Source: an uncultured Flavobacteriales bacterium (GTDB lineage Bacteria; Bacteroidota; Bacteroidia; Flavobacteriales; Flavobacteriaceae). Taken from it: 64,000 nucleotides of DNA. A program made the position numbers and the translations under genes. The stretch spans positions 1 through 64,000 of the forward strand of contig CAJXYJ010000003.1 of NCBI GenBank assembly GCA_913063255.1. The letters are read 5' to 3'. The first letter of the stretch is position 1, and each line of letters opens with the position of its first letter. This document shows positions 33,432 to 41,794 of this stretch, in pieces. The notes under the pieces are model-generated. The model saw only the letters and a list, made by a program, of their open reading frames with translations, had not been told where the DNA came from and searched no databases.

Positions 33432-34133
33432 CTACCCCAACCAACCATCCCGATCCAAACTTCGATACTGTATGGCTTCTGAAATATGATTGCCAGTAAT
33501 ATTTTCTGAAGCTTCTAAATCGGCAATCGTGCGTGATACTTTTAAAATGCGATCGTATGCTCTGGCTGAAAGATTTAATCGTTCCATAGCCGTTTTTAAA
33601 AGTTGCAAAGATGCAGCATCCAACTTACAAAAGGCTCGAATTTGCTTTACGCCCATTTGAGCATTATAATGAACTGTTTCTGAATCTGAAAATCGTCCCG
33701 ATTGCAATTTTCTGGCTTTGGTGACCCGTTCTCTAATAACAGTACTTAGCTCTCCCCTACGCTCGTCACTTAACTTCTCAAAAGGAACTGGAGTGACTTC
33801 TATATGAATGTCAATACGATCTAATAAAGGCCCTGAAACTTTTCCTAAATACCGTTGCATTTCTTGAGGTGATGAGGTCATTGGCGAATCGGGATCGTTA
33901 AAATAACCACTGGGGCTGGGGTTCATACTTGCAACCAACATAAAACTGGAAGGATAGGTCACTGTAAATTTTGCTCTAGATATAGTAACCTCTCTATCTT
34001 CTAAGGGTTGCCGCATTACTTCGAGTACTCCTCTTTTAAACTCTGGTAATTCGTCTAAAAACAAAACACCATTATGAGATAAGGAAATCTCTCCGGGTTG
34101 TGGATAAGCACCGCCTCCCACAAGTGCTACGTC
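33432..34133 (-). pseudogene. comM: comM/yifB 3' half, disrupted by the element
   Basis: ALVGGGAYPQPGEISLSHNGVLFLDELPEF...; continues the 5' half at 40955-41794. Confidence 0.95.
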
Positions 34134-34153
34134 TGTGACTATTGATAATGTGT
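34129..34153. other. attL junction
   Basis: ctacgTCtgtgactattgATAATGTGT; comM homology ends at the TC core. Confidence 0.75.
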
Positions 34154-34281
34154 CCTACATTAAATATTGATTGATGTGATTTTATTAAAACATAAATAAT
34201 ATTTTACTATTTATAATGATTATAAATTATAAGTATTGATTGTCAGTCACTTACAGGTGTCACAATTAATAACAAAAAGAT

Positions 34282-34329
34282 AGGGTAACTCGTTTTAATT
34301 ACAGTTGAATGTGTTACTGCAATTACCCT
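34282..34329. other. Long imperfect inverted repeat, candidate origin/nick region of the Rep-like gene
   Basis: AGGGTAA(bulge)TTACAGT ... ACTGCAATTACCCT, just upstream of the HUH-like ORF. Confidence 0.4.
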
Positions 34330-34359
34330 TGGTGTATCTAATAATTAACAATAGAAAAT

Positions 34360-34734
34360 ATGAACAAAATAGGAATTGAATACGGCAAATGGTTAGGTCA
34401 AATGGATTGGAATTATTTAGCAACCATAAGACCTCATTACTCAATATCACCAATAGCAAGTGACAGAATGATGAGAAGTTTAATTAAATACCAAAATATT
34501 GATAGGATATTCTATGCATTAGAAAAAGATAGGAATTGCAATATGAACCACGTTCACTTGATGCTTAAAACAAACAATGATTTAGATGGGGATAACCTTG
34601 CTAAACAGTTACACCTTAATCCTAAAGCAGTAGGATATTTCGATGAGGTTAATTCTCCTGAAGCAATAAGTTTCTATTGTACAAAGAACATAACTAAATC
34701 ACATTCACATTATGACCTACTAACAAGCTATTAA
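34360..34734 (+). CDS. Small HUH/Rep-like endonuclease candidate
   Basis: WNYLATIRP (motif I-like), NHVHLML (HUH), YCTKNITK (YxxK). Confidence 0.6.
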   Translation: MNKIGIEYGKWLGQMDWNYLATIRPHYSISPIASDRMMRSLIKYQNIDRIFYALEKDRNCNMNHVHLMLKTNNDLDGDNLAKQLHLNPKAVGYFDEVNSPEAISFYCTKNITKSHSHYDLLTSY

Positions 34735-34785
34735 TTTAATTATATAACCCAATGAAAACCGAATAACAAACGAAATTAAAACGAT

Positions 34786-35088
34786 ATGGCACGATTTGAA
34801 AAAGGAAATAGCAAAGGTGGTAGAACTAAAGGTAGTAAGAATAAAAACACGCAAGCAATACGAGATGCTTATCAGTTACTTATTGAAGAAGCATTGCCAA
34901 AGCTAAAAGAAGATTTAAACTCGTTAGACCCAAAAGAACGGTTAAGAATGATAATAGATTTGAGTGGTTATGTTATACCAAAACTGAAAGCTATAGAAAG
35001 CACGTTTGCTGGAAAAGAAGACATAACTATTGACTTTAACGACGGCAAAGAAGTTATAAATATATTACCAGTAGAATGGGTAGAATAA
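34786..35088 (+). CDS. DUF5681-like protein
   Basis: FEKGNSKGGRTKGSKNKNTQAIRDAYQLL. Confidence 0.65.
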   Translation: MARFEKGNSKGGRTKGSKNKNTQAIRDAYQLLIEEALPKLKEDLNSLDPKERLRMIIDLSGYVIPKLKAIESTFAGKEDITIDFNDGKEVINILPVEWVE

Positions 35089-35117
35089 TACGTTTAACAA
35101 ACACGAATTAAACAGAA

Positions 35118-35435
35118 ATGGGATTTGAAAAAGGAAATTCATTAGGAGGTAGAACCAAAGGGGCTAATGACAAAACTAATATTGAAGTACGCAAATTATT
35201 TACTTTGATATTAGAAGCTAATGTCGACCAGATACAAGAAGATTTAGAAATGATAAAGAAACCTGAAACGAGAATTAAACTATTGCTTGACTTAGCTAAA
35301 TTTTGCCTTCCTACTCTTAAATCGGTAGAAGCTACGTATGAGGGTAAAGATGTTAATATTATAAATTTAGGTAATGGTGTAAACCCTGAAATAACACCCG
35401 TATCAATAAACTTCACACATAGAGCAGATGAGTAA
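35118..35435 (+). CDS. DUF5681-like protein, tandem paralogue
   Basis: FEKGNSLGGRTKGANDKTNIEVRKLFTLI. Confidence 0.65.
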   Translation: MGFEKGNSLGGRTKGANDKTNIEVRKLFTLILEANVDQIQEDLEMIKKPETRIKLLLDLAKFCLPTLKSVEATYEGKDVNIINLGNGVNPEITPVSINFTHRADE

Positions 35436-35706
35436 AGAAATAAAAAATATTGAAGATCTATATAAATTTATTTTAGATAATGATTTAACTCCTGACGAAA
35501 CAAGAGAATTATTACAAACCACGCTAAGAATATGGATAAGTGGTGAGTATGAAAAAGAAACCTTAGTGGATATGTTAAGAGCGTTTTTAAATAAATATCC
35601 TGTAAGAGATGAAACCAGACCTTTGTTTTTAGATGTAGATATTGATAAGGTTAAATTAACAGACTTTGGATATAAATCACTAATTAAAAAAGAAGTTAAA
35701 TCTTAA
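35428..35706 (+). CDS. Hypothetical protein, 92 aa
   Basis: ORF overlapping the previous CDS by 8 bp. Confidence 0.6.
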   Translation: MSKEIKNIEDLYKFILDNDLTPDETRELLQTTLRIWISGEYEKETLVDMLRAFLNKYPVRDETRPLFLDVDIDKVKLTDFGYKSLIKKEVKS

Positions 35707-35716
35707 TATTTATAAT

Positions 35717-35824
35717 ATGAAGAGATTAAATACTACAGATAAAATAATGCTTATTATGTTTATACTTGGAATAGTATTTTACATAATTATATATACTTTG
35801 GAAACACTCTTTTTTAAAAATTAG
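35717..35824 (+). CDS. Putative 35-aa single-TM microprotein
   Basis: MKRLNTTDKIMLIMFILGIVFYIIIYTLETLFFKN, not in the supplied track. Confidence 0.35.
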   Translation: MKRLNTTDKIMLIMFILGIVFYIIIYTLETLFFKN

Positions 35825-36076
35825 GGTTTTTCTTATTGAAACTTAGGGTTTTCCCTTTTTAATTTATGAATAGTAATAATACCTTAGTAAAATATTTAAT
35901 CGATTTGGAGATTTCGATTTATAATATTTCTAACTACCCAATTAACAAGAAAGTCATTATTAATTTAATGGCTTTTTTTTGAGTTTTCCGTAAATTATAA
36001 TTGATAAGTGTATTTAATTTTGACCTGACATTTATCATATTGAAACAGAAACAATTAAACTAATTTTAACACCCCT

Positions 36077-36091
36077 TGACATTACCTGTCA
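36077..36091. promoter_or_regulatory. Inverted repeat, candidate operator
   Basis: TGACA-TTACC-TGTCA upstream of a TAATTTTG -7 box (36115-36122); related TGACATTTATCATATT at about 36026. Confidence 0.35.
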
Positions 36092-36151
36092 TATTATAAA
36101 ACTAAAGCATCTCTTAATTTTGCATTATTAATTAATTTAAAACCAAAGATT

Positions 36152-36331
36152 ATGAATAAAAAATCATTAGATATATCTGAAATGACAGATAGAGAACTTC
36201 AAGAATCCATTGCAAAAAATCTTAGAATTGTAACTCAAAAAAGCAAAAGCACTAATGGGTGGTTAACTTTTATAGGATTAATGTTTGTTTTAAGCATTAT
36301 AGCAAGTATATTTTTAATTTCTCAAGCGTAA
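36152..36331 (+). CDS. Putative 59-aa single-TM protein
   Basis: MNKKSLDISEMTDRELQESIAKNLRIVTQKSKSTNGWLTFIGLMFVLSIIASIFLISQA, not in the supplied track. Confidence 0.6.
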   Translation: MNKKSLDISEMTDRELQESIAKNLRIVTQKSKSTNGWLTFIGLMFVLSIIASIFLISQA

Positions 36332-36334
36332 GCT

Positions 36335-36775
36335 ATGAAAAGATTATTGATAGTATTAATAGCAGTCTTAGGATTTGCGTCCTGTGAAAATATAGAGTCA
36401 AGCCCTTATGAATTTTCAATAAATGCAAAAAATGGTGCAGATGAAAAGAAAGAAGTGAAATTTAATGTCACCCCATTTATTGTAGATAGTCTGAAAATTA
36501 GTAAAACTACCTTAATAAGAATGGCAAGTGATGCAGCACGTTATGCTGATTGGAATGTAAAGAATAAACTTACCTATGATTTTAATGAAAATGAGCTTGT
36601 AGGTAATATGATTTTTTTAAATGATGATAATATCACGATATCTATTAAAGGGAAAGCGTCTAATTCGTATGGTGTTCCTGGAGAAATTACATCTTTTATT
36701 TATTTTGATATTGAAACTAAAGAAATGATTACAGACGAAAACCAATTTCCAAAAGTTGATTCACATGAACTATAA
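36335..36775 (+). CDS. Hypothetical lipoprotein
   Basis: LIAVLGFASCEN lipobox. Confidence 0.7.
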   Translation: MKRLLIVLIAVLGFASCENIESSPYEFSINAKNGADEKKEVKFNVTPFIVDSLKISKTTLIRMASDAARYADWNVKNKLTYDFNENELVGNMIFLNDDNITISIKGKASNSYGVPGEITSFIYFDIETKEMITDENQFPKVDSHEL

Positions 36776-37116
36776 TGCGTTGTTTATTTTTTTAAATACA
36801 ACCTCTAATTATTAACTGGTAACTCTATAGGTAATAACTCTAAAATTATAGTTGGTTTACTTCCATACGAGTATCAAAGGTTTGCTTTTCTGTTAGATGC
36901 TATTATGCTGAATTAAATATAATAATTATATATTAGTGGTGGAAAATACTAACTCCCAAAATTAAATTTACTCCCACTTTAATTTATTTGATATGGGTTT
37001 TGTATTGTTTTTTTTACAAAATTGATAAAGTCATCAAAAGGTACGATTATCCCGATACAGAAATCGACAAAAGTTACCTTTAGTAATGGTATAACAAGTT
37101 AGGCATAATTAAAAAA

Positions 37117-37554
37117 ATGGAATACAAACCTTTACATCAGGCAGGATTCAAAGATATTTCTGAGAGCGAACTTAGAGATATATTTGTTACACCATTTGAA
37201 GAGCCAACAAGAAGAGAATATTTAATGACACGATTTGAAGCTCTTCTTGATAGATTTAAAGAAGCTGGAATATCTTCAGAAGTTTGGATTGATGGTTCTT
37301 ATTCAACTGAAAAACCCGAGCCAGGAGATATTGATATGATATTTTTTATTGATGGTATTGAAGCAAATAAATTGGATGCAGATAAAAAAAGGATATTAGC
37401 TGAATTAAATGATAGAAATATATCCTCAATTAGATACAATTGTGATATTTTTATTGTTCCAAACCATGACGTTAACGGAAGAAGTTATTGGAGAGGATGG
37501 TTTGGGTTTTCTAGAGATGAAGAACCTAAAGGCATAATCCGATTAAGCATTTAA
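37117..37554 (+). CDS. Pol-beta-fold nucleotidyltransferase (DUF6932-like)
   Basis: GSYSTEKPEPGDIDMIFF plus YNCDIFIV: GS...DxD and a third Asp. Confidence 0.75.
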   Translation: MEYKPLHQAGFKDISESELRDIFVTPFEEPTRREYLMTRFEALLDRFKEAGISSEVWIDGSYSTEKPEPGDIDMIFFIDGIEANKLDADKKRILAELNDRNISSIRYNCDIFIVPNHDVNGRSYWRGWFGFSRDEEPKGIIRLSI

Positions 37555-37555
37555 T

Positions 37556-38485
37556 ATGAATTTAATAGGAAGAGTTAGTCGAAATATAGAACAGCTAAAG
37601 GAACTAATAAGTTCTGTAAGTGCTGATATTGCAAAAGATCCTGATGATTTTTCGCTTAGTTTAAAATATAATTCCTTAAAAAATCAATTAGAAGATTTAC
37701 AACATCAGTTATATCAAGAAAACCTAAAACGTGAAAAAGAAATTATACAAATTAGATTAATTGGAAGTACTGCGAATTTTGGAACTTTGCCTTTAGATTT
37801 TGTTAGTGGCATTACATATAATTTTTCTAAATCCTTACATAGTACTTCAAGATATTTGCAATTTGGAAAAAAAGGAGGAAAAAAAAATGAAAAAATTATA
37901 AAAGAAACTATTGACTTAAGATTAGAAAATATAGGTAGAGGTTCTACAATATTTTATATCTCTGGTAAAACTTCCCCTAATCTTTTTGGAGAAAGTATTT
38001 TACAAAATAGCTTAGAGAATACTTTTGATTTATTTAATTCCCAAACACCTGATGATGTTACAGAGAACATATCAAATGTTGGAGGGAATAGTTTGAAATT
38101 TATTTCCAAATTTTTAAAAGAACTAACCAATGATGATTTAGAATGTGATTTAAAATGGAATAGTCCTGATGACAGAGAATTTATTTGGAAAGGGGAAAAA
38201 GAAAATATTTTAAGTTTATATAACACCATTAATAAAATGGAAATTTCAGAACCTGTAGAAATTGAATTCGAAGGAGAGTTAATTACTATTAGTGCAAAAG
38301 GGAAATTTGAAATATTTACACTTGACAAAAAACTATTATATGGAAATTTTTCAACCGATTTATTAAAAAAAATGGAAGAATTTCATATTCGAGATTATTG
38401 CAAAGGAACAATTTCTAAGACTATAATTTACAACCCATTAACGGATAAAGAGAAAATTGAATATAACTTGATATCAATAGAATAA
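37556..38485 (+). CDS. Unknown 309-aa partner protein
   Basis: Starts 1 nt after the NTase stop codon; N-terminal coiled-coil-like region; no recognised domain. Confidence 0.75.
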   Translation: MNLIGRVSRNIEQLKELISSVSADIAKDPDDFSLSLKYNSLKNQLEDLQHQLYQENLKREKEIIQIRLIGSTANFGTLPLDFVSGITYNFSKSLHSTSRYLQFGKKGGKKNEKIIKETIDLRLENIGRGSTIFYISGKTSPNLFGESILQNSLENTFDLFNSQTPDDVTENISNVGGNSLKFISKFLKELTNDDLECDLKWNSPDDREFIWKGEKENILSLYNTINKMEISEPVEIEFEGELITISAKGKFEIFTLDKKLLYGNFSTDLLKKMEEFHIRDYCKGTISKTIIYNPLTDKEKIEYNLISIE

Positions 38486-38563
38486 AACTATGTACAACTT
38501 TTAAAGTATACCCATAAACAATACACTAAAACCACCCTATTTTATTGAATAGTAAGTGTATTA

Positions 38564-38595
38564 TTTGCACACGTTAAAAATGGTACATATATTTG
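38564..38595 (+). promoter_or_regulatory. Bacteroidetes promoter of the small serine recombinase
   Basis: TTTG-N20-TATATTTG, consistent with -33 TTTG / -7 TAnnTTTG. Confidence 0.65.
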
Positions 38596-38599
38596 CAAT

Positions 38600-39205
38600 A
38601 TGAAAACTATAAAATACATAAGGGTATCCACAACAGAACAAAACATTGAAAGGCAAGAAACATCCGCTAACACGCTTATTGATAAGTGTAGTGGCTCTAT
38701 ATCGTTTAAAGAGCGTAAGAGCGGCTCAAAACTGCTTAAAATGGCTAATAACGATGAGGTTAATACTATTAAAGTTCACAGTATTGACAGACTTGGAAGG
38801 AATACACTTGATATACTAAATACGATCCAAACACTTACAGATTTAGGTGTTAATGTGGTTAGCGAGAAAGAAGGATTATCTACTCTAATCGATGGCAAAG
38901 TAAACCCTACAAGCAAACTAATAATAAACATATTAGCAACCTTATCAGAGTTTGAACTCAATATGATTAAAGAAAGACAACGTGAGGGAATTGCTAATGC
39001 AAAAGCTAAAGGAGTTTATTCATCTAATGGAGGTAATAAGCAAAATGAAACCGCTAAAGAGTTTCTATCCAAAAGTAAGAACGCTAAATGCTTAAAGGAA
39101 CTAAGGAACGGAAATAGTATAAGGCGTTCAGCATCTATCGGGGGTGTATCTAATACAACCGCTCAAAAGATTAAGAAACTAATGCTAGAAAATACTAACC
39201 TCTAA
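38600..39205 (+). CDS. Small serine recombinase (resolvase/invertase)
   Basis: YIRVSTTEQNIERQ; IDRLGRNTLDILNTIQTL; SEFELNMIKERQREGIANAKAKG. Confidence 0.95.
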   Translation: MKTIKYIRVSTTEQNIERQETSANTLIDKCSGSISFKERKSGSKLLKMANNDEVNTIKVHSIDRLGRNTLDILNTIQTLTDLGVNVVSEKEGLSTLIDGKVNPTSKLIINILATLSEFELNMIKERQREGIANAKAKGVYSSNGGNKQNETAKEFLSKSKNAKCLKELRNGNSIRRSASIGGVSNTTAQKIKKLMLENTNL

Positions 39206-40872
39206 GTTGCAAATTTATCCCATAAATTATCTGCATAGCTTCTTAGTTCCTTATTGTTCATTTTTTTAGTCTTATCTGATAATGGCATTATGTACTTATT
39301 ACAAACTTCAAATATTACATTGTAGCTTTTATCTATTAAATATACTTCTTCATCAAATTCTGGAGTAACAGTAAAGTTATAAGTAAATCTTAATCCGTAT
39401 AAACCATTTTTATAAAAAACATAAATCTCTCTAATATACTTTTGAATGATTTCTCTTTTTTTATTAAAAGAAGCACCGCTATAAATTTCGTTTAAATCCT
39501 TAATCTCGTTTTCTTTATTAAGGTCAATATCTACATAATAACTTTCATCATCTAAAAGGTTTCTAAGTCTTACTTGAAGGTCTTTTTTAGTTATTTTAAG
39601 TTGCCGCATTTGAGATGCTATATCACTATCATCTATATCGTCAAGTAAAGCTAATTCGATTGCTCTTTTACGTCGTTTCTCGTTCTCTTTAATGTCTACT
39701 TCAATTAGTCTTATATCGGCTCTAATTTGCGTTAATTTACTTTCGCTATCGATATCTTTAAAAAAAGCATCAGTTAACTTTAATAGTTCTTTTTCAATAA
39801 AGAACCTATTCCAAACAAAATCTTCTATTACATCAATATTTATACTTCTATTACCACAGTTTTCAGTCTTGTAACGTTTAGAACAGCACATATAATAATT
39901 ATCTTTTTTGTTTACACGTGTACGACCGTAATAATTTCTATCACATTTAGCGCATCTAATAATACCTTTTAATAGATACTTATGAGTTACTACCTTACCA
40001 CTATTGTTTCTATTAGCTTTTAGATTATCGTTTACTTGTTGCCAATAATGGGGAGTAATTATATTAGGTGCTTCATACACTCCACTTTTTAAATGCCGTT
40101 CGCCTTTATAGATAGGGTTTTTTATAATATTCCGAATAGTATTTCCTGACCATCTAATGTCCTTTTTTTTAGTAGTTGTTGATCTACCATATTTAGTAGT
40201 TGTTAAAGTTCCAGTACCAATTTGATTATAACGTGTAAGTGTTCCTTTTTTGTTTAATATTTCGGCAATCTTATTTGTGCCTTTACCCTCTAAACTCATT
40301 TGAAAGATATCTTTCACTATTTCAGCTTCAGTACCTTGAACAACTATATATCTATTTTCAGAAGTATATCCATAAGGGCTAATACCGTGAGCCTTACCTT
40401 CTTTTGCATTGTCCTTTAAAGCCTTCTTTGTTGCTCTTGATTGTAAGTTTGCCTGATATTCACTTAATTGAGAAAGTACACCAGATAACAATAATGTTGA
40501 AGGGTCATTAAAATCAAGTTTTTCCTTATCTCCAAAGTAAACATCTACATTCTTTTTTTTAACCGCATCAATAAATATAGCATAGGTAAGGTTGTTTCTT
40601 GATAATCTATTTTGGTTACGCATCCAAACACGCTTAATAGTACCTTCTTCAATGTCTGTAATCAGCTTTAATAGTTGAGGTCTATCTACAATATCTAATG
40701 TACCACTTACCCCCTCGCCTTCATTATAAACATTAAAATCAAATTTAAGTTTCTTAGCAAACCTTTTACCCTCTCGAAGTTGGTTATTAATGGAGTTACT
40801 TTCTTCATCCTCTTTTGATAATCTTGTGTAAATTCCCAGCATTTTTTTGTTAATAACTTTTTGTTTAACCAA
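39202..40872 (-). CDS. Large serine recombinase / integrase
   Basis: GIYTRLSKEDEES; RNQNRLSRN; Recombinase domain; Zn ribbon CAKCDRNYYGRT...CCSKRYKTENCGN. Confidence 0.96.
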   Translation of the reverse strand: MVKQKVINKKMLGIYTRLSKEDEESNSINNQLREGKRFAKKLKFDFNVYNEGEGVSGTLDIVDRPQLLKLITDIEEGTIKRVWMRNQNRLSRNNLTYAIFIDAVKKKNVDVYFGDKEKLDFNDPSTLLLSGVLSQLSEYQANLQSRATKKALKDNAKEGKAHGISPYGYTSENRYIVVQGTEAEIVKDIFQMSLEGKGTNKIAEILNKKGTLTRYNQIGTGTLTTTKYGRSTTTKKKDIRWSGNTIRNIIKNPIYKGERHLKSGVYEAPNIITPHYWQQVNDNLKANRNNSGKVVTHKYLLKGIIRCAKCDRNYYGRTRVNKKDNYYMCCSKRYKTENCGNRSINIDVIEDFVWNRFFIEKELLKLTDAFFKDIDSESKLTQIRADIRLIEVDIKENEKRRKRAIELALLDDIDDSDIASQMRQLKITKKDLQVRLRNLLDDESYYVDIDLNKENEIKDLNEIYSGASFNKKREIIQKYIREIYVFYKNGLYGLRFTYNFTVTPEFDEEVYLIDKSYNVIFEVCNKYIMPLSDKTKKMNNKELRSYADNLWDKFAT

Positions 40873-40932
40873 CTATTTATGAGTTAATTAAATTGTTACA
40901 TTTATGTAAAGGTAATAAATAATAATGAAAGT

Positions 40933-40957
40933 ACACATTATATTATATAACATCCGA
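40933..40957. other. attR junction
   Basis: ACACATTATattatataacaTCcga; comM homology starts at the TC core. Confidence 0.75.
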
Positions 40958-41794
40958 AATTGTATGATGAGGACTTCTAAAGGGTCGAGAACTCATCACA
41001 CCGCCTTTTTTCATGGTGCGCCCTGCTACACTATGAATCTTGGTTGTTTCTAATGCTTCGCCCAAAGTCATTGGAGGTAAAATACTGGGTAGGCGTTTTG
41101 CTAACATGGTTTTTCCAGACCCTGGAGGGCCGATTAGGATTATATTATGCCCTCCTGCAGCGGCAATTTCCATGCAGCGTTTAATGGACTCTTGGCCCTT
41201 CACATCTGCAAAATCGAATTCAGGGTTTTCCAAGTGGTTGTAAAATTCTGCTTCAATATCTACAATGGTTTCTTCTAGTGCTTTGTTTTCATTAAAGAAA
41301 TCCATGACTTCTTTTATGCTATTTACTCCAAATACTTCAAGCCCATCCACTATAGCAGCTTCTTTAGCATTTTGTTCCGGTAAGATAAAACCTTTAAACC
41401 CTTCTTCTTTTGCTTTTATCGCTATGGGTAAAGCTCCACGAATGGGCTGTAAAGTTCCATCCAAAGAAAGTTCACCCATAATAATATAATCGTCTAAAGG
41501 ATTTTTTTCTTCTATCTGTCCTGTAGCTACCAAGATTCCCATTGCCAATGTTAAATCGTATGCAGAACCTTCTTTCCGCATATCTGCAGGCGACATATTT
41601 AAGATTAATTTTTTACCGGGAATTTTATAGCCATTGTTCTGAAGTGAGGCAGCAATTCTATAGTTACTTTCCCGAATGGCATTATCGGGCAGTCCAACCA
41701 AATGATAGCCAATTCCTTTATCTACGTTTACCTCAACGGTAATGGTGGTAGCTTCCACACCAAATACAGCACTCCCATATACTTTTGTAAGCAT
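40955..41794 (-). pseudogene. comM: comM/yifB 5' half, truncated by the element
   Basis: MLTKVYGSAVFGVEATTITVEVN...SRPFRSPHHTISDV then an immediate stop inside element sequence. Confidence 0.95.

Follow-up and report, generated by a model that had tools for sequence, protein, structure and literature searches.

What is the role of a nucleotidyltransferase gene that lies a single base ahead of a second gene on a mobile element, and do the two form a system of their own? In the window (the whole 64,000-nt stretch of DNA analysed here), the pair and the genes that frame it are as follows.

37117..37554, plus strand: gene A, a 145-aa Pol-beta-superfamily nucleotidyltransferase, DUF6932 / PDC-M63A (ORF, Pfam, PADLOC, AF2, column conservation)
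37555..37555, plus strand: A-B gap, a single base (T) between the TAA of A (37552-37554) and the ATG of B (37556) (sequence)
37556..38485, plus strand: gene B, 309-aa PDC-M63B (ORF, PADLOC, AF2, Foldseek)
38600..39205, plus strand: small serine recombinase/resolvase, 201 aa (Pfam Resolvase, 4.4e-29)
39202..40872, minus strand: large serine recombinase, the element integrase, 556 aa (Pfam Resolvase, Recombinase and Zn_ribbon_recom)
33432-34121, minus strand: C-terminal half of comM, element boundary (Pfam Mg_chelatase 91-205 and Mg_chelatase_C)
40943-41794, minus strand: N-terminal half of comM, element boundary (Pfam ChlI and Mg_chelatase 1-87)

A coding gene pair carried as cargo

Both reading frames proposed in the initial annotation, 37117-37554 and 37556-38485 on the plus strand, recur in the ORF list, and the 1 nt that separates the stop of the nucleotidyltransferase (NTase) from the start of its partner can be read directly in the sequence. 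Translational coupling of the two genes is expected; among homologous pairs, a -4 spacing (ATGA overlap) is seen in 86 of 112 locus records, a census that includes redundant copies. Since homologues of A and B occur in phages, Enterobacteria, Vibrio, Nitrospirae, and Bacteroidota, dN lies far below dS for each gene, and the structure models are confident, the coding reality of both goes beyond chance.

The pair had been described as residing on a comM-integrated element, and comM halves were indeed located on both sides, the break falling within the Asp-Val codons of ...HHTISDV/ALVGGG. A and B are cargo on this serine-integrase element, with the recombinases as context outside the pair. The element spans 34130-40950 of the window, between the comM halves, and encodes, besides the two serine recombinases, small paralogous proteins that start M(A/G)FEKGNS.GGRTKG-like (34786-35088 and 35118-35435), a lipoprotein-like protein (36335-36775), and a 124-aa protein containing HVHLML, conceivably the remnant of a HUH-type Rep (34360-34734). 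The host genome assembly (2.9 Mb, 81% complete) contains one copy of the pair, and none of 197 relatives carries B.

The pair belongs to the candidate family PDC-M63

Is this a new system? PADLOC matches A to PDC-M63A (5.8e-56 over 1-144 of 145 aa) and B, adjoining on the same strand, to PDC-M63B (4.2e-123 over 1-308). With both proteins covered end to end and an equal gene order, the window pair is a member of PDC-M63. A additionally falls into DUF6932 (Pfam PF22014, 2.6e-30), while no Pfam or NCBIfam family covers B, and PHROGs holds both as unknown (phrog_9194 and phrog_6603). The suggestion that the system is undescribed must therefore be withdrawn, as PADLOC models fit both genes and the pair has already been deleted once in E. 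coli; likewise, that the partner lacks a recognisable domain holds for Pfam, but not for PADLOC. What we have is a real, conserved, and mobile two-gene module of a known candidate kind.

The PDC entries in PADLOC are candidate phage-defence systems that a screen based on guilt by embedding proposed, and most of them await validation (PMC12988326). Deleting PDC-M63AB from E. coli NILS69 left sensitivity to 10 virulent phages unchanged (PMC12409345), the only test found in our literature search, which returned no function or mechanism for PDC-M63. The family is thus catalogued but mechanistically undescribed—an entry spanning several phyla, whose two close E. coli variants occupy 18 and 96 of 5,426 complete genomes (~2% together). 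New here are the co-occurrence and co-evolution of the two genes, their position in the rexAB slot, their embedding in restriction-modification (RM) operons, and the module swaps of the B core and of the NTase.

Fold and conservation of the two proteins

Protein A displays a GSx9DxD signature (GSYSTEKPEPGDIDM in the window), with G60, S61, K66, D71, and D73 invariant among 48 homologues. The window protein also has the third aspartate that had been noticed along with this motif (D110, in YNCDIF). This residue is not strictly conserved, being retained in 41 of the 48 homologues and replaced in seven (His in six, Asn in one). In one subclade (L058, L064, L067, L070, L072, and L076), the third Asp has turned into His (xLHxF) next to an apparently intact partner; here, A may bind nucleotides rather than transfer them. 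Specific to the family are an N-terminal stretch and a C-terminal YWRGWFGFxRxExPKG motif, of which W125, F129, and G139 are invariant. AlphaFold modelling, suggested in the initial annotation for both proteins, yields a compact NTase for A (AF2 pLDDT 95), which among solved structures comes closest to minimal NTases, one of them the MntA antitoxin 7ae9 (Foldseek; weak E of 0.02-0.1). Signature and fold agree with a DUF6932 protein and Pol-beta NTase, the fold neighbours being at weak E.

The AF2 model of B (pLDDT 89) predicts a coiled-coil hairpin (3-57), an alpha/beta core (62-227), and an OB/IF1-like barrel (234-308). Foldseek relates this barrel to the OB-folds of IF1 and SSB (best E 0.003, weak); for B as a whole, it points to a phage protein with DUF6575 (4e-15) and to one from Leptospira phage LE1 (4e-8). 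A PDB sequence search with B returned nothing. R67, G76, G129, S130, G176, and W201 are invariant, R122 is nearly so, and the conserved arginines of the R67/R122 type fall in predicted core strands. Column conservation revealed neither a catalytic acid/His set nor a conserved Rx4-6H, the sole His-rich column (30/44) being Q in the window, and no HTH was found by Pfam or AF2. The earlier observation that the partner shows no obvious HEPN motif or HTH is corroborated by an alpha/beta-plus-barrel model and by the lack of any HEPN match in Pfam or PADLOC. Isolated weak matches of B to Imm39 (0.068) and SUKH, and of its core to the cyclase-like 1wc1 (prob 0.35), were set aside.

That a conserved NTase gene pair of this kind, carried by mobile elements, may act as a toxin-antitoxin (TA) or anti-phage system remains plausible. 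The specific systems named at the outset—AbiE, MNT-HEPN, and CBASS—found no support, as none of their PADLOC models matched and the fold of B is not that of a HEPN protein. For AbiE/MenA, no model hit either protein and B has no HTH. HEPN-MNT (type VII TA) shares with the window pair a minimal NTase beside a partner and the structural neighbour 7ae9, but B is alpha/beta with an OB barrel instead of all-helical and has no Rx4-6H, and A has its own N-terminal stretch and YWRGWFGF C-terminus. In HEPN-MNT, NMP is transferred to the toxin, with MntA AMPylating HepT (PMC7641770, PMC11586414). This chemistry would provide the best analogue for the action of A, without making it a member of that family.

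Could A instead synthesise a nucleotide messenger upon infection, which B binds via R67, R122, and GS129-130 to become active, as in CBASS? An NTase with a non-enzymatic-looking partner, arginines conserved in predicted strands of the B core, and a weak similarity of A to the CD-NTase 6e0k (E 0.07) would be consistent with this. Yet, the latter match is at chance level, A, with just 145 aa, leaves no room for the helical lobe that CD-NTases have, and PADLOC reported no CBASS model, rendering such signalling highly improbable.

Linkage, co-evolution and spread

A and B co-occur and co-evolve. With A alone as the query, we retrieved 24 loci from 85,462 species genomes and 49 loci from IMG/VR. 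An intact B-type ORF adjoins A in 69 of these 73 loci, so the co-occurrence across genomes, proposed earlier as a check, was found in most of them; in three (L008, L017, and L022) B is broken, and in one (L079) the partner is a divergent 317-aa protein (hhalign E 2e-6). Across 43 loci, the pairwise distance matrices of A and B correlate with r=0.91, compared to a maximum of 0.22 in 2000 permutations.

DUF6932 was found in 30 and B in 8 of 398 Bacteroidota genomes. Among 22 well-scoring DUF6932 loci, the partner is B by HMM in nine, B by profile comparison in two further ones (L114 and L117), and an Xre-HTH or Xre-peptidase protein in four (L113, L115, L120, and L125). The 328-aa partner in L133 was considered as a B relative, which proved unsupported. 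Conversely, one B homologue (L145 in genome G379, 1366-2313; 2e-55) has no DUF6932 gene nearby or in the hit list of the genome sample; a metallophosphoesterase gene precedes it. In E. coli KL53 and 13E0767, IS elements are inserted inside A with B intact. Polarity could explain these insertions, which may be polar on B, or else part of A may remain. When viral contigs were scanned with one protein at a time, neither B nor the PD-T4-10_B module gave a match.

Genomic context: a prophage slot and RM operons

Where do these pairs reside? The phages mEpX1, PhiR30_1, and vB_EhrS_59, as well as a Klebsiella plasmid prophage, carry the pair immediately 3′ of a cI-type repressor gene, ahead of early lytic genes (N, kil, or gam, for example). 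The chromosomal copies in E. coli are arranged alike downstream of cI, and in L031, the closest viral relative, an S24/CI repressor is encoded one gene upstream. Of 46 upstream neighbours, 14 contain an HTH_3 and 10 a Peptidase_S24 domain. The slot after cI is the site of rexAB and bstA, and its genes are expressed in lysogens (PMC7067206). In cI-type prophages, of lambdoid and of other temperate phages, the pair occupies this rexAB/bstA slot; its likeness to RexAB and BstA is one of position alone, with no known sequence relation. Divergent pairs from two Bacteroidota genomes lie within type I RM operons, in the orders HsdM - SLFN/AlbA - Fic - HsdS - A - B - Abi_C - AAA_13 (L167) and HsdM - HsdS - HsdR - A - B (L168).

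An operon adjoining cI, its presence as mobile-element cargo in the window, and the lack of a phage phenotype in the sole test (PMC12409345) could also be reconciled with a function outside defence: an addiction module for lysogeny or element maintenance, or a regulator of the prophage switch, located beside cI by chance. However, pairs occur outside phages too, within type I RM operons alongside Abi_C, SLFN, and AAA_13, and the window element is among those that have no cI beside the pair. We therefore consider a non-defence role unlikely.

Module swaps with known defence systems

Two Bacteroidota loci (L147, 1492-2982; L148, 1429-3100) encode fusions that begin with DUF6575, the domain found at the N-terminus of PD-T4-10_B, and continue with the B core; each fusion gene is preceded by one related to PD-T4-10_A (9e-8 and 1e-28, respectively). 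The B-core match in L148 is backed by profile comparison (E 8e-8), and both loci present a hybrid PD-T4-10/PDC-M63 architecture. In PD-T4-10, the B protein is toxic and the A protein neutralises it, together conferring abortive defence against T-even phages (Vassallo 2022, PMC9519451). We considered whether the B core is homologous to the C-terminal module of PD-T4-10_B, which is plausible by eye (beta-alpha-beta-GS-beta), but profile comparison did not support it (hhalign E 0.08, scarcely better than shuffles). As the two cores are not detectably homologous, the effector end seems to have been exchanged and the antidote-linked end kept, and toxicity of B is not directly inherited from PD-T4-10B; the seat of toxicity could be DUF6575 itself. 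The window pair shares with PD-T4-10 the order of a small and then a larger gene, and its B core is fused to DUF6575 elsewhere, but the window A is an NTase rather than PD-T4-10_A and the window B has no DUF6575. Both window proteins match only PDC-M63 models, their relation to PD-T4-10 running solely through the L147/L148 domain swap.

The second swap concerns the NTase. DUF6932 genes lie directly upstream of PD-lambda-2_B-like Xre-peptidases in L115 (1.5e-77) and L113. PD-lambda-2B is a toxin that its upstream gene neutralises, PD-lambda-2A being HigB-like (PMC9519451). While some DUF6932 genes thus adjoin PD-lambda-2_B-like genes, the window B is not an Xre-peptidase and PD-lambda-2A is not an NTase; DUF6932 with an Xre-peptidase is possibly an NTase variant of PD-lambda-2. 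DUF6932 followed by genes for Xre-HTH and ImmA/IrrE-type peptidases was observed at L113 1495-3382, L115 1462-3211, and L151 3929-4960, and Streptococcus phage MissE1 carries an ImmA/IrrE gene two genes beyond DUF6932. Judged by architecture, A would stand where the antidote is expected in both swaps, and B where the effector is.

A candidate abortive-infection module

Because both swaps place A as antidote and B as effector, we tentatively favour PDC-M63 as a TA-like abortive-infection module borne by prophages and defence islands, in which NTase A would restrain a toxic effector B, though we hold this at somewhat below even chances. B, with its alpha/beta core and predicted nucleic-acid-binding OB/IF1-like barrel, would be the toxic effector and probably target translation or RNA. 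A, a minimal NTase translated just ahead of B and presumably coupled to it, would serve as the antidote, keeping B inactive through binding or NMP transfer, as MntA does with HepT. Infection might upset this control—by NTP depletion, a phage trigger, or loss of A—and the released B would stop growth, protecting the population and the resident prophage. The linkage of A and B, r=0.91, the cI slot, RM embedding, the DUF6575 fusion, the PD-lambda-2B neighbours, and the likeness to MntA 7ae9 count in favour of this reading. Against it stand the negative NILS69 deletion, the orphan B in L145, IS elements in A with B intact, the weak Foldseek matches (A and the OB barrel of B; E above 0.002), a B core without detectable homology to the C-terminal module of PD-T4-10_B, and a B protein without a conserved catalytic acid/His set.

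Some of these observations raise the question of whether the roles are reversed, with A being the active enzyme or toxin, for instance by nucleotidylating tRNA or some other host molecule in the manner of MenA/AbiEii, and B acting as regulator, substrate adaptor, or sensor. Clear catalytic residues in A, a B protein with an OB/IF1-like barrel and no conserved catalytic residues, the one B found without A, and the KL53 and 13E0767 strains with disrupted A and intact B all fit. Nevertheless, A is intact where B is broken in L008, L017, and L022, seven of 48 A proteins have no third Asp, the B core has been swapped into a toxin architecture beside an antitoxin, and relatives of A hold the antitoxin position by PD-lambda-2B-like genes. 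Such a reversal is, in our view, doubtful.

Slot, RM embedding, and swaps together yield a specific and testable hypothesis for A as antidote and B as effector, with named residues and with mEpX1 as a carrier of the pair; given these three features, the toxicity of B alone versus that of B with A would be decisive. Going further, DUF6932 might represent an NTase antidote family gating interchangeable toxins (M63B and Xre-peptidases), with M63B as a new toxin fold (alpha/beta core and IF1-like barrel) that could also be placed under PD-T4-10A control, and thus a modular abortive-infection family in the rexAB slot of many prophages. This broader proposal is possible, if speculative.

Reading the C-terminus of L154 as an M63B core was unsupported. 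The PD-T4-10_B C-terminal module also occurs as a stand-alone gene of ~213 aa (L161, 1486-2127; L162, 1501-2139; L159 and L160), in one case beside ogrK where a P2-like prophage of Salmonella ends.
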